A stretch of DNA of 42,176 nucleotides from an uncultured Methanomicrobiales archaeon. Its GTDB lineage: Archaea > Halobacteriota > Methanomicrobia > Methanomicrobiales > Methanospirillaceae. The stretch is from assembly GCA_903828975.1 (NCBI GenBank), contig CAIKOD010000164.1, forward strand, positions 1 through 42,176. The letters run 5' to 3'. How positions within the stretch are numbered: the first letter of the stretch is position 1; the number at the start of each line of letters is the position of its first letter. Positions 33,017 through 37,688 of this stretch are shown here, piece after piece. The notes under the pieces were generated by a model. That model searched no databases. It was given only the letters and a program-made list of their open reading frames with translations, and had not been told where the DNA came from. Both the position numbers and the translations under genes were made by a program.

Positions 33017-34843
33017 ATGAAAATTTGTGCAATAATCTCATTATTTCTCACCGTCATCATCCTCTCAGGATTTTCTTGTGCATTTACAGCCAGTGCATCT
33101 GCAATTCCCGTAATGATAAAGGCTGATAACACGTATATTGCTCCTTTTAGCTCTGCTTACAATACCTGGCTAAATACCCGATCTACCGTACCGTCCGAAA
33201 GCCCGGAAGGTCACGGGCTGGGGTTGATCCCCGCACCCGTCGACCTGTCCGGAGTATCAGATTCCGGGACCTGGAGCAACAATGTAAACGTTCCTGAAGT
33301 TGTCGGTTACGCGTTGCAGAGAGGCGCGGGGATTGCACAAACACCTGGAACTACTCTTATCGCCACCGCGAGCTCTGACAGCTATGATCTCCGTACATTG
33401 GGAAAACTAAGCCCGATTCGAAACCAGGGCCAGGATGGTAATTGTTGGGCATTTGCATCCATTGCATCGCTTGAATCATCACTGTTACCAGGGGAAAGGT
33501 ATGATTTTTCTGAGAATAATGAAAAGAACCTGCATGGCTTCGATGTGCCCATTAACATGGGTGGCAATGATTTTATGGCAACGTCATACCTTGCCCGGTG
33601 GTCAGGTCCGGTGTCCGAAGCTGCTGACCCTTATTCTTACGGGACCACAGTTTCTGCATCAGGTCTTTCAGCTGAAAAACATGTACAGGATGTATTTTTC
33701 ATTCCAACACGAAGGGGATCTCTCGATAACGACCTGATTAAGTCAGCGCTCAGGCAATATGGTGCGGTATACTCCACGTTACGGTATGAATCATCATCCT
33801 ACACGCAACGTACCGCGTCATATTACTATTCCGGATCAGGTGGATATAATCATGCTATTGATATTGTCGGATGGGATGACGGTTATTCATCCGGGAATTT
33901 CGATAACCCACCCCCTGGGAACGGTGCATTTATAGCCAGGAACAGCTGGGGCATGACGTGGGGAGATGCAGGGTATTTCTATATCTCGTATTATGATACC
34001 CGCATTGGCAGGGATAATGCGATGTTTACTGCAGAGTCACCAAATAACTATTCACGGGTCTACCAGTACGATCCGTTTGGATGGGTTGCAAATTTCGGGT
34101 TCGGAACCGACACCGCATACTATGCAAATGTTTTTACCTCTGCCGGAAATGAACAACTGAAGGCCGTCGGGTTCTATACGTCGGCAACGAATACAGCATA
34201 TGAGGTAAAGGTGTTCATGAACCCGGATAGTGGACCGATAAGCTCCAGTGGTTATGTGTCAGAACAGAATGGGACAATCAGTATTCCCGGGTATCATACC
34301 ATCCGTCTTGATAATCCGGTCAGCCTTAAAAAAGGTGACCATTTCTCAGTCGCGGTTAAGGTGGTATCTGCCGGGTCGACTACACCAGTGGCGATAGAAT
34401 TACCAATAAACGGGTATTCTACGGGAGCAACAGCTTCGTCCGGTCAGAGTTATATCAGCAGCAATGGTGAAGGTTGGAACGATCTTACGCTGTCCCAGCC
34501 GAACACGAATGTTTGTTTAAAGGCATTCACTAGTTCGGGTTCAACCCCTGTCGCTGTGACTAAACCCTCTTCCACAGGATGGCTGACGTTAAAAAACCTT
34601 CCCAGGTCTTCAACCCCGGTAAAAAGTAACGTTGCCCGGGTTTATCTGAATATAGGCCCTGTAAATCAGAAAAACCCGGTCAGCCGGGCACTCACCGGGC
34701 AGGCATCTACCCGGAACACTCTCCAATCATTTGTACCGGCACCAGAATATTACATCTCAAGGTACCGGATGAGTACCGGAAATGTATCCTCCTCAGGCAG
34801 TTCCCCTGATAAGTTCCTCGCAAAGTACCAGGGGTCTGATTGA
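33017..34843 (+). CDS. secreted papain-family (C1A) cysteine protease with lectin-like domain
   Basis: The 608-residue product has a signal peptide (about 1-29), a short pro-region and a C1A peptidase domain (about 120-335). The catalytic residues are all present: oxyanion Gln137 and Cys143 in 'IRNQGQDGNCWAFASI', His279 in 'GYNHAIDIVGWDDGY' and Asn309 in 'FIARNSWGMTWGDAGYFYIS'. A beta-rich domain follows (about 345-530), of the lectin-like type often paired with such proteases ('EQLKAVGFYTSATNTAYEVK'). The C-terminal 80 residues are Ser/Pro-rich without an anchor. It is likely extracellular and may remodel surface proteins or degrade external protein. It is a monocistronic gene. Confidence 0.9.
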   Translation: MKICAIISLFLTVIILSGFSCAFTASASAIPVMIKADNTYIAPFSSAYNTWLNTRSTVPSESPEGHGLGLIPAPVDLSGVSDSGTWSNNVNVPEVVGYALQRGAGIAQTPGTTLIATASSDSYDLRTLGKLSPIRNQGQDGNCWAFASIASLESSLLPGERYDFSENNEKNLHGFDVPINMGGNDFMATSYLARWSGPVSEAADPYSYGTTVSASGLSAEKHVQDVFFIPTRRGSLDNDLIKSALRQYGAVYSTLRYESSSYTQRTASYYYSGSGGYNHAIDIVGWDDGYSSGNFDNPPPGNGAFIARNSWGMTWGDAGYFYISYYDTRIGRDNAMFTAESPNNYSRVYQYDPFGWVANFGFGTDTAYYANVFTSAGNEQLKAVGFYTSATNTAYEVKVFMNPDSGPISSSGYVSEQNGTISIPGYHTIRLDNPVSLKKGDHFSVAVKVVSAGSTTPVAIELPINGYSTGATASSGQSYISSNGEGWNDLTLSQPNTNVCLKAFTSSGSTPVAVTKPSSTGWLTLKNLPRSSTPVKSNVARVYLNIGPVNQKNPVSRALTGQASTRNTLQSFVPAPEYYISRYRMSTGNVSSSGSSPDKFLAKYQGSD

Positions 34844-35096
34844 GAACCTAAAAAAGTCCCGTCAGGTATGACGACCTGTCAGCACTATGGTCTCCCATTT
34901 AAAACCCGGAAGATCCCTGATTTTTTGGTAGTTGGCGAACGATTATCATCCTGTTTTCATAATAGTGTAGTTATATAAACCGTTGCGGTACCACCCCGGG
35001 AACTCCAATACGTAAAAGCTGTTCGACTAAGGTCCAATTAAGAAAGTGTTTCACCAGGTGTATCCATGTCTCCGGAAAATTACTTTGTTCAGGCAG

Positions 35097-36110
35097 GTGA
35101 ACCAGATTCCATCAAGGCGGGAAAAGATAAAAAATAATCTCAGTAAAGGTTGCCGTATCTGTAAAAAAGGGGCTAAAATGGTCCTTTTTGTCACCGGGGT
35201 ATGTCACCGTACCTGCTGGTATTGCCCGCTATCGAGTGAGCGAAAAGGAAAAGATCTAACCTTTGCCAATGAATGGTTGATTGAAAGTCCTGAGGAAGCG
35301 ATTGAAGTGGCACATCGCATGAGTGCCCTTGGGACAGGAGTGACCGGAGGAGAACCGCTCGCACGTCCCGAGCGGGTAATTAGCTATTGTTCAAGATTAA
35401 AGGAAGAATTCGGGCCGGAACACCAGATACATCTCTATACTGGAATCGCACTCGACCGTGAAATGCTTAACCGCCTTGCAGGTATTGTTGATGAAATCAG
35501 GCTTCATCCACCAGAGGAGGTTTGGGATACAATCCTGACAAGTGATTATGTGGCATCTGCCGTGAACGCAAAAGAGATGGGATTTGATATCGGGTTTGAA
35601 GTCCCGGCCCTTCCCGATGTCGGTGTTCTCGGTCAGGCACTTCCTGTACTTGACTTCCTCAATATTAATGAGCTGGAATGGGGCGGTCACAATGCCGACG
35701 GAATGCGTGAACGTAGTTATGCGCTCGAGGACGGGCTTCATAACGCAATAGAGGGTGCAAGAGAATGGGCCTCGCTTATCAGTAAAGAGGAAAAGGTCCA
35801 TTTTTGCTCCTCATCATTTAAGGACTCAGTCCAGCTCAGAAAGCGGTTAATCCGTATAGCCAGGAATACAGCACGATCTTTTGACCATGTGACACGGGAC
35901 GGGACTATTATTTATGGGAACCTGGTACCTCATGAAAAAGATCGGGAATGGCTTAAACGACTTAAAACGGGATCGTTTGAAGACCAGGGTGATCATGTTG
36001 AACTTTCATGGAGGGTACTGCGTTCCAGCGCAGAAACCCTCTCAGGGGAGAGCTGTATTATTGAAAGGTACCCGGACAGGGGCATTATCGTCGAGGTGAC
36101 GCCCATTTGA
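35097..36110 (+). CDS. radical SAM protein, COG2108-like
   Basis: The radical SAM cluster motif is 'CHRTCWYC' (C-x3-C-x2-C), preceded by 'KGAKMVLFVTGV' and followed by 'GTGVTGGEPLARPERVISYC'. Two more Cys upstream ('CRICKKG') may hold an additional site. The frame is open from 35046; no ATG is in register before the motif. A GTG at 35097 is taken as the start but has no strong Shine-Dalgarno, so the N-terminus is uncertain by up to 17 codons. The product is about 337 residues. The substrate is unknown. The stop overlaps the TTG start of the cis-prenyltransferase gene by 4 bp, so the two are co-translated. Confidence 0.85.
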   Translation: MNQIPSRREKIKNNLSKGCRICKKGAKMVLFVTGVCHRTCWYCPLSSERKGKDLTFANEWLIESPEEAIEVAHRMSALGTGVTGGEPLARPERVISYCSRLKEEFGPEHQIHLYTGIALDREMLNRLAGIVDEIRLHPPEEVWDTILTSDYVASAVNAKEMGFDIGFEVPALPDVGVLGQALPVLDFLNINELEWGGHNADGMRERSYALEDGLHNAIEGAREWASLISKEEKVHFCSSSFKDSVQLRKRLIRIARNTARSFDHVTRDGTIIYGNLVPHEKDREWLKRLKTGSFEDQGDHVELSWRVLRSSAETLSGESCIIERYPDRGIIVEVTPI

Positions 36111-36886
36111 GCCTGATATCTGCGTTAGAACCTTTGTATGAAGCACAGCTCATACGGCAGTGCGTATACAGGCCCCGTCATATTGCTATCATACAGGACG
36201 GAAACCGGCGATATGCAAGGAATACAGGTCTTGATACTGCTGATGGTCACCGTGCGGGTGCAGATGTGACTGAAAAAGTCCTTGACTGGGTGCATGAACT
36301 GGGGATCACACATATCACCCTCTATTCCTTCTCCACAGAGAATTTCAATCGGGACCCAGGCGAAATAGAATCCCTCTTTACACTTTTCAAAGAGAAATTT
36401 TTAAGTGTCCTGACTGATGACAGGGTGTCAAAATACCGGATACGGGTCAGGATGGTTGGTGACAGGACCCTCCTCCCTGATGACTTAAAAGCGGTAGTTG
36501 AGATTGCTGAAGAGGCTACAAAAGAGCATAATGATTTTTTCTTAACTATTGCCCTGGCCTACGGTGGCCGTAATGAGATCCTTCACGCTGCACGAAGAAT
36601 CCTTGAAAAAGTCAGTGAGGGTACCTGTAATCCCGAAGAGATTACGTGTTCGATGGTGGAATCACACCTCCACGAGGGGTGTGATTTACCCCCTGTAGAC
36701 CTCATTATCCGGACTGGAAATGAATGCAGGACTTCCAATTTCCTCCCATGGCTTGCGAACGGGCATGAAAGTGCGGTATATTTTTCGGCACCGTACTGGC
36801 CGATGTTTCGTAAAATTGACCTGCTCCGTGCGTTAAGGGTCTATTCACAACGAAAAAAAGCCGGAATTACTTCCCAAAACGCCTGA
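36107..36886 (+). CDS. cis-prenyltransferase (UppS family), catalytic-type subunit
   Basis: The 259-residue product has a TTG start supported by GAGGTGA seven bases upstream and a 4-bp overlap with the radical SAM gene. It contains all the catalytic hallmarks: 'HIAIIQDGNRRYA' (catalytic Asp of DGN), 'HITLYSFSTENFNRDPGEIE', 'ALAYGGRNEI' and 'DLIIRTGNECRTSNFLPW'. It condenses isopentenyl diphosphate to long cis-prenyl chains for dolichol-type glycan carriers. The C-terminus is unusual: where homodimeric enzymes end in RFG it reads 'YSQRKKAGITSQNA' (KAG). Such loss is known in catalytic subunits of two-component enzymes. The last 20 bp overlap the convergent gene for a degenerate paralogue. Confidence 0.92.
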   Translation: MSLISALEPLYEAQLIRQCVYRPRHIAIIQDGNRRYARNTGLDTADGHRAGADVTEKVLDWVHELGITHITLYSFSTENFNRDPGEIESLFTLFKEKFLSVLTDDRVSKYRIRVRMVGDRTLLPDDLKAVVEIAEEATKEHNDFFLTIALAYGGRNEILHAARRILEKVSEGTCNPEEITCSMVESHLHEGCDLPPVDLIIRTGNECRTSNFLPWLANGHESAVYFSAPYWPMFRKIDLLRALRVYSQRKKAGITSQNA

Positions 36887-37541
36887 CCCGGGACTGATAA
36901 TCACGGAGGGCCCTGATAAGGTCCACTTTCCGGATATATTGCCAGTTTGTATCAGAGAAAAAAAGTTCAGAATACACCGATTGCCATATCAGGAAATCAG
37001 TCAGGTGGTCGTCCCCGGTTTTAATCACAAAATCCGGGGTATATTTGAATGTCAGGCATGATTCGAGAAGCTTTTCGTCGACCTGCTCAGGCTGGACATG
37101 GCTTTTGGCCATTGATTTGATACATTCCGTGATCTCTTCTCTCCCACTCTTACCGATGGCAACGGTAACGGAAAGTCCTGATCCACGTTCTTCAGTCTGT
37201 TCCTTGTAATGGATGACCAGATGAGCGATAGCTCCGATTTTTCTGATTACCGGTAAGTATTTTTCAATGGACGAATATTCTTTTGTACTGATATGAAATG
37301 TCAGGCCCTTTATGGTACTGCCATTTATGGCAGATTTTTTAGTTCCCTGAGTACTCTCAATGAATGCTGGATTAGCTTTTCTGGCAGCAACCCCTTCGGA
37401 AATATCAATACACCACCTTGTACATGCAAGGATCTTATCCGGGGCATCCTGCATATCCTGTTCGGTGATCATTACGCAGATATGGGCCGGGAGGACCGAG
37501 AGCTGACGTTCGAGGCGTCGTTCATATATCCAGTAAATCAA
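36867..37541 (-). CDS. degenerate cis-prenyltransferase paralogue (NgBR/Nus1-like candidate)
   Basis: The frame is open from an ATG at 37580, but a GGAGGT Shine-Dalgarno seven bases before the TTG at 37541 makes that the better start (224 residues). The fold is recognisable from 'IYERRLERQLSVLPAHI' at the start, 'SGREEITECIKSMAKS' in the middle, and 'FLIWQSVYSELFFSDTNWQY' plus 'DLIRALRDYQSRVRRFGK' at the end. The catalytic DGN is replaced ('HICVMITEQDM'), and the RTSGE..R.SN substrate motif is degraded to 'KTGDDHLTDF', so it should be inactive alone. It keeps the terminal RFG that contributes to the partner active site in dimers. It is probably the non-catalytic subunit for the neighbouring enzyme (inference). 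Confidence 0.8.
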   Translation of the reverse strand: MIYWIYERRLERQLSVLPAHICVMITEQDMQDAPDKILACTRWCIDISEGVAARKANPAFIESTQGTKKSAINGSTIKGLTFHISTKEYSSIEKYLPVIRKIGAIAHLVIHYKEQTEERGSGLSVTVAIGKSGREEITECIKSMAKSHVQPEQVDEKLLESCLTFKYTPDFVIKTGDDHLTDFLIWQSVYSELFFSDTNWQYIRKVDLIRALRDYQSRVRRFGK

Positions 37542-37688
37542 AATGGTGACCTCCGGTTGTACTGATCTTTTCTCATGCATCCGATAGGGCCGTTAATGCA
37601 GTTCATACGATTGATCCAAAGGACTGTATGCATTATTCTCTCAATCATTAATTGGTTGTTATTATTTGTCAGGTTTCAACCTGATTTT

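Follow-up and report, generated by a model that had tools for sequence, protein, structure and literature searches.

Eukaryotic cis-prenyltransferases (cPTs) of the human DHDDS/NgBR and yeast Rer2/Nus1 type divide their motifs between two chains, with DGN and the substrate arginines on one subunit and a C-terminal RxG, one residue before the last, on the other. In the human complex, the RxG of NgBR enters the DHDDS active site, and NgBR ends one residue after this motif, its terminal carboxylate contacting DHDDS; yeast Nus1 has an asparagine in place of the RxG arginine. The earlier note on the DNA studied here drew its precedents for such an enzyme from eukaryotes only, but an archaeal one exists: in PMC8131916, which cites Emi et al. 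2019 on this point, MM_0618 and MM_1083 of Methanosarcina mazei are described as a heteromeric cPT with C45-50 products. A further M. mazei cPT makes C25-40 products and has no assigned role, and MM_0014 crystallises as an active homodimer (PMC8131916).

Here we analysed a 42,176-nt stretch of DNA (the window) from an uncultured Methanomicrobiales archaeon, in which two genes of the cPT family (PF01255) converge tail to tail. To judge from their motifs and by analogy with the systems above, the products of the two genes are very probably subunits, one catalytic and one not, of a single heteromeric cPT that makes a glycan-carrier polyprenyl diphosphate. This kind of enzyme is already known, and the heteromeric reading has good support and was to be expected from M. 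mazei. What a specialist might not expect is the universality of the pair across the phylum and the conserved convergent order of its genes.

A convergent pair with complementary motifs

The coordinates and strands of the pair, its 20-bp convergent overlap, the TTG starts and the Shine-Dalgarno motifs could all be read in the sequence as the earlier note had given them (Table 1). The minus-strand start is also backed by where orthologues begin: an alternative in-frame ATG lies upstream at 37580, and the TTG at 37541 is preferred because orthologues start at the MIxWLYE segment.

Table 1. Features of the cPT gene pair and its upstream neighbour, in window positions.
Feature	Position	Strand	Details
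Radical SAM protein	35046..36110	+	PF04055 E=1.6e-7; CHRTCWYC motif
Shine-Dalgarno GAGGTGA	36090..36106	+	5' of TTG 36107; read from sequence
Putative catalytic cPT subunit (DHDDS/Rer2-like)	36107..36886	+	TTG start, 259 aa; PF01255, motifs, AF2 model
Convergent overlap, 20 bp	36867..36886	both	Both coding ends, stops included; ITSQNA-stop vs FGK-stop
Putative non-catalytic cPT subunit (NgBR/Nus1-like)	36867..37541	-	TTG start, 224 aa; PF01255, A1 profile, AF2 model
Shine-Dalgarno GGAGGT	37542..37556	-	7 nt 5' of TTG 37541; read from sequence

The plus-strand product matched PF01255 over profile positions 1-216 of 219 (E=6.8e-67, Pfam profile search), ending just before the RFG positions of the profile. 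Its motifs read D31-G32-N33-R34-R35, FSTENFNR (E78, N79, R82) and R202-T-G-N-E-C-R208-T-S210-N-F, so that DGN and RTGNE..SNF are kept, as had been claimed, in the form DGNRR and RTGNECRTSNF. The catalytic motifs were invariant in a 25-row alignment, as were the individual residues E78, N79, R82, R34, R35, R202, R208 and S210; by motif, human DHDDS E81, N82, R85, R37, R211 and S213, which make contact with RxG or the substrates in the human complex, correspond to E78, N79, R82, R34, R208 and S210 here. The C-terminal end, which varies among orthologues, has no canonical RxG. Its tail is QRKKAGITSQNA, running to ITSQNA-stop, and the earlier wording 'KAG instead of RFG' was right in substance, since the canonical RRFG is missing. 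The single-chain AF2 model (pLDDT 86.3) had human DHDDS 6w2l_A as its top PDB match in a structure search (E=8.6e-22, TMq 0.85). DHDDS has a long C-terminal domain that the catalytic subunit here lacks. The catalytic domain is also about 36% identical to structures of the bacterial homodimeric UppS and shares their motifs, but UppS carries DGN and RxG on one chain, whereas in the window pair they lie on separate chains.

The minus-strand product matched PF01255 only over profile positions 102-219 of 219 (E=2.4e-23), the half that holds the RFG positions. It reads IKTGDDHLTDF and has no DGN, K174 and L180 replace the IPP-site arginines, and its C-terminus is R221-F222-G223-K224 (RRFGK), which bears out the earlier description of a gene without DGN and substrate arginines but with a terminal RFG. 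In an alignment of orthologues, the best-conserved parts were the DFLIWQSVYSELFF and RRxG segments. A chance or spurious open reading frame was ruled out by the Pfam match, 98 orthologues and a folded model: AF2 predicted a cPT fold for the single chain (pLDDT 86.3, pTM 0.84), with residues 2-12 as its first helix. In a structure search, this model matched cPT folds generally (E about 1e-9), and the NgBR chain 7pb1_B had the highest target-normalised TM score in the match list (TMt 0.64); at rmsd values of 5 Å and more, these matches show likeness of fold only and not close kinship. A1, a profile built from the NgBR-like subunit that can also match catalytic copies, matched the human NUS1 chain over profile positions 20-205 (E=1.3e-9). 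Bacterial UppS outscored NUS1 against the same profile and a specific kinship to NgBR is therefore not established, human NUS1 giving no sequence sign of being closer than UppS. Eukaryotic NgBR/Nus1 proteins have an N-terminal membrane anchor, whereas none is visible here: the 224-aa product starts MIYWIYERRLER, and by inspection no hydrophobic segment precedes the cPT-like domain.

By analogy with the human complex, the two products would associate physically and depend on each other. In its sequence, the plus product retains the IPP arginines, the E-N-x-x-R loop and, with DGNRR, the Mg/allylic-diphosphate site; the minus product retains the fold and a tail in which a single residue follows RxG. 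In the complex, the minus product would itself catalyse nothing, and its C-terminus would cross the dimer interface into the plus active site, where the backbone nitrogens of F222 and G223 would bind the IPP phosphate and R221 would sit between the IPP and allylic sites, completing the sites of its partner. From the M. mazei enzyme, a product of about C45-50 used in glycosylation would be expected, the long polyprenyl diphosphate being dephosphorylated to give the glycan carrier.

Distribution across the order and phylum

In the order Methanomicrobiales, PF01255 matched in 144 of 150 genomes, nearly always exactly twice, and in 108 of the 109 high-quality genomes, G124 having a single, NgBR-like match. 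Catalytic matches ended at profile positions 214-218, and the second matches listed ended at 219. We read 111 order genomes at the catalytic gene and its surroundings; the partner lay within the fetched stretch in 98 and elsewhere in 13. Both subunit types were present in all 111 genomes inspected, and no case of one gene without the other was found among them. Every catalytic copy carried DGNRR, RTxxxxRxSNF and FSTENxxR (111/111) and none had RR[FYLWM]G near its end (0/111); 15 of the 111 had some RxG in the tail, such as RSG, in a non-canonical register in those examined by eye. All 98 partners ended in RRxG plus exactly one residue, and DGN was found in none of them.

Across the phylum Halobacteriota, the A1 profile matched 287 of 295 sampled genomes. 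As a stricter test, we searched 59 phylum genomes with PF01255, and 57 had matches, each with one full-length match and one that reached profile position 219 but not the start of the profile. The extracted phylum loci repeated the motif split, with KFG replacing RFG in 3 of the 206 partners counted (L189, L190 and L248, which end in RKFGK, a natural Arg-to-Lys change). On these sequences, the complementary split of motifs is essentially universal in the order and the phylum. The two genomes negative for PF01255 both came from family f12. In this family (G155, G164, G173, G182 and G189, 75-91% complete), A1 matches were absent from all five sampled genomes and PF01255 matches from both that were searched; a joint loss of both subunits is possible. 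In several other families (L223-L240), the cPT domain of the catalytic copies is followed by a long C-terminal extension, which is found in none of the order members and whose position recalls the C-terminal domain of DHDDS.

In a tree of 87 sequences, the catalytic and NgBR-like proteins formed the two sides of one branch with support of 100/100, the placement of a few long-branch rows being unsure. This split across the phylum ruled out a recent local inverted duplication as the origin of the pair. Taken jointly with the heteromeric explanation, it is highly likely that the pair is an ancient duplicate, both copies of which have been retained as obligate partners across the phylum, and that its tail-to-tail placement is inherited rather than recent.

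The Methanosarcina-type genome G281 offers an indirect link between the window pair and the described archaeal enzymes. Its third cPT is an MM_0014 orthologue, with a tail lacking RxG, and it encodes one further protein of each type, of which L243 fell in the catalytic clade of the tree and L244 in the NgBR-like one. Through these homologues, the window pair may correspond to MM_0618/MM_1083, likewise an archaeal two-paralogue cPT from the same phylum. The Methanosarcina-like genomes examined have the two genes far apart, whereas the window has them convergent and overlapping. MM_0014 and MA1831 are likewise archaeal PF01255 cPTs without a terminal RxG, but they represent a distinct third paralogue, homodimeric, distantly similar (phmmer E=2e-15) and absent from the window genome.

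Not every cPT strictly requires RxG, as yeast Nus1 and MM_0014 illustrate, and its absence alone is no proof that a protein depends on a partner. With MM_0014 as an example of an archaeal cPT that lacks the terminal motif and can be an active homodimer, and with all in-subunit catalytic motifs present in the plus product, the latter could be a self-sufficient homodimeric cPT, its neighbour being a diverged paralogue with another or a regulatory role. We consider this very unlikely in view of the strict co-occurrence and complementary motif split phylum-wide, and of the RRxG segment, which is among the best-conserved parts of the minus product and which in human NgBR serves the active site of the partner. 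The heteromeric enzyme that we favour would extend a two-subunit mechanism, known chiefly from eukaryotes and shown in one archaeon, to practically all of an archaeal phylum. Hundreds of naturally occurring pairs could then be used to study how an active site is completed in trans by RxG, and the origin of DHDDS/NgBR would become testable.

Conserved convergent gene order

Of the overlapping gene pairs in prokaryotes, 84% are unidirectional, and the co-directional ones are enriched in genes for complex subunits (PMC10666635). The tail-to-tail arrangement, which the earlier note called unusual, is so for complex subunits generally (PMC10666635), but here it is the norm in the order and in much of the phylum. 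All 98 pairs in the fetched order loci were convergent: 31 overlapped by 13-31 bp, 61 were overlapping or at most 100 bp apart, and 89 lay within 1 kb. The other 13 order genomes comprised three with convergent genes at longer range (G069, G053 and G074), one with divergent genes (G021), two with genes on the same strand (G033 and G014) and seven with genes on separate contigs. A scan of public genomes, which partly overlap the order set, found 71 of 71 named pairs convergent. In the phylum, by a hand tally from the listed positions of 57 genomes, 22, from 12 other families, had the pair convergent and no more than about 9 kb apart; of 23 close pairs, 22 were convergent, one was same-strand at 10 kb and none was divergent. 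The remaining phylum genomes, including those of the Methanosarcina-like family f8, had the genes far apart or on different contigs. We found no literature on a convergent cPT arrangement, which carries little weight because the subscription literature lay largely outside the search.

Shared descent explains the conserved order. Why the genes of obligate partners stay convergent, against the co-directional norm (PMC10666635), is the question that this raises. We lean towards an ancestral order that is decaying slowly and has no function, a view that concerns gene order only and is compatible with a heteromeric enzyme. A single common descent suffices for it, the gaps lie anywhere between -31 bp and several kb, Methanosarcina-like and other families have the two genes apart, and the RNA fold at the junction is ordinary (z=-0.22), with nothing unusual detected there. 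Against such passive decay, 89 of the 98 order pairs stay within 1 kb, compared with PolX, the best-conserved gene on the side beyond the minus gene, which was among the first four genes there at only 32 of 69 loci. The same 20-bp overlap recurs in a same-genus locus (L057). A conserved overlap length was rejected, the spacing being -31, -27, -20 or -13 or a short gap according to lineage. The overlap itself gave no terminator signal, terminator-like matches lying elsewhere and barely above shuffles.

A more ambitious proposal would make the heteromeric cPT an ancestral archaeal invention and the source of eukaryotic DHDDS/NgBR, with the tail-to-tail order held by selection, for example because antisense or transcriptional coupling keeps the subunits in balance. 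We regard this combination as unlikely; if true, convergent order would here do what co-directional coupling usually does for complex subunits.

Neighbouring genes and the probable product

The genome from which the window derives is 97.8% complete, and its only PF01255 genes are the window pair; no second full-length cPT was found in it. STT3/AglB is encoded in the genome. Directly upstream of the catalytic gene, the radical SAM gene overlaps its start by 4 bp, the TTGA of the 36107 start spanning the radical SAM stop. Of 69 order loci, 61 had the same gene in this adjoining position, and in other families it occurred upstream of the cPT gene with one gene between, a DUF2551 gene in the locus tested. 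This operon partner is possibly linked to polyprenol metabolism.

The conserved radical SAM partner hints at further chemistry, and archaeal cPT products vary, the extra M. mazei cPT making C25-40. The heteromer might thus be real and its main product be something other than the glycan carrier, such as a shorter or specialised polyprenyl lipid. That outcome seems highly improbable, because the genome has STT3/AglB yet no other cPT, leaving the pair as the only carrier candidate, and because the M. mazei pair makes C45-50.

Alongside the favoured role in making a glycan-carrier polyprenol, we noted a second recurrent neighbour outside the order. At 15 loci (L224-L227, L229, L230, L232, L233, L236, L238, L239, L248, L250, L252 and L256), a membrane protein is encoded on the opposite strand, divergently, beside the 5' end of the NgBR-like gene. 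In L224, the sole locus tested, Pfam identified it as DUF92, a family that includes the plant phytyl-phosphate kinase VTE6; such a neighbour fits polyprenol metabolism, as an association only. The window genome also has a DUF92 protein gene, on another contig. Elsewhere in the window, positions 33017-34843 encode a papain-family protease with a lectin-like domain, which is probably secreted.
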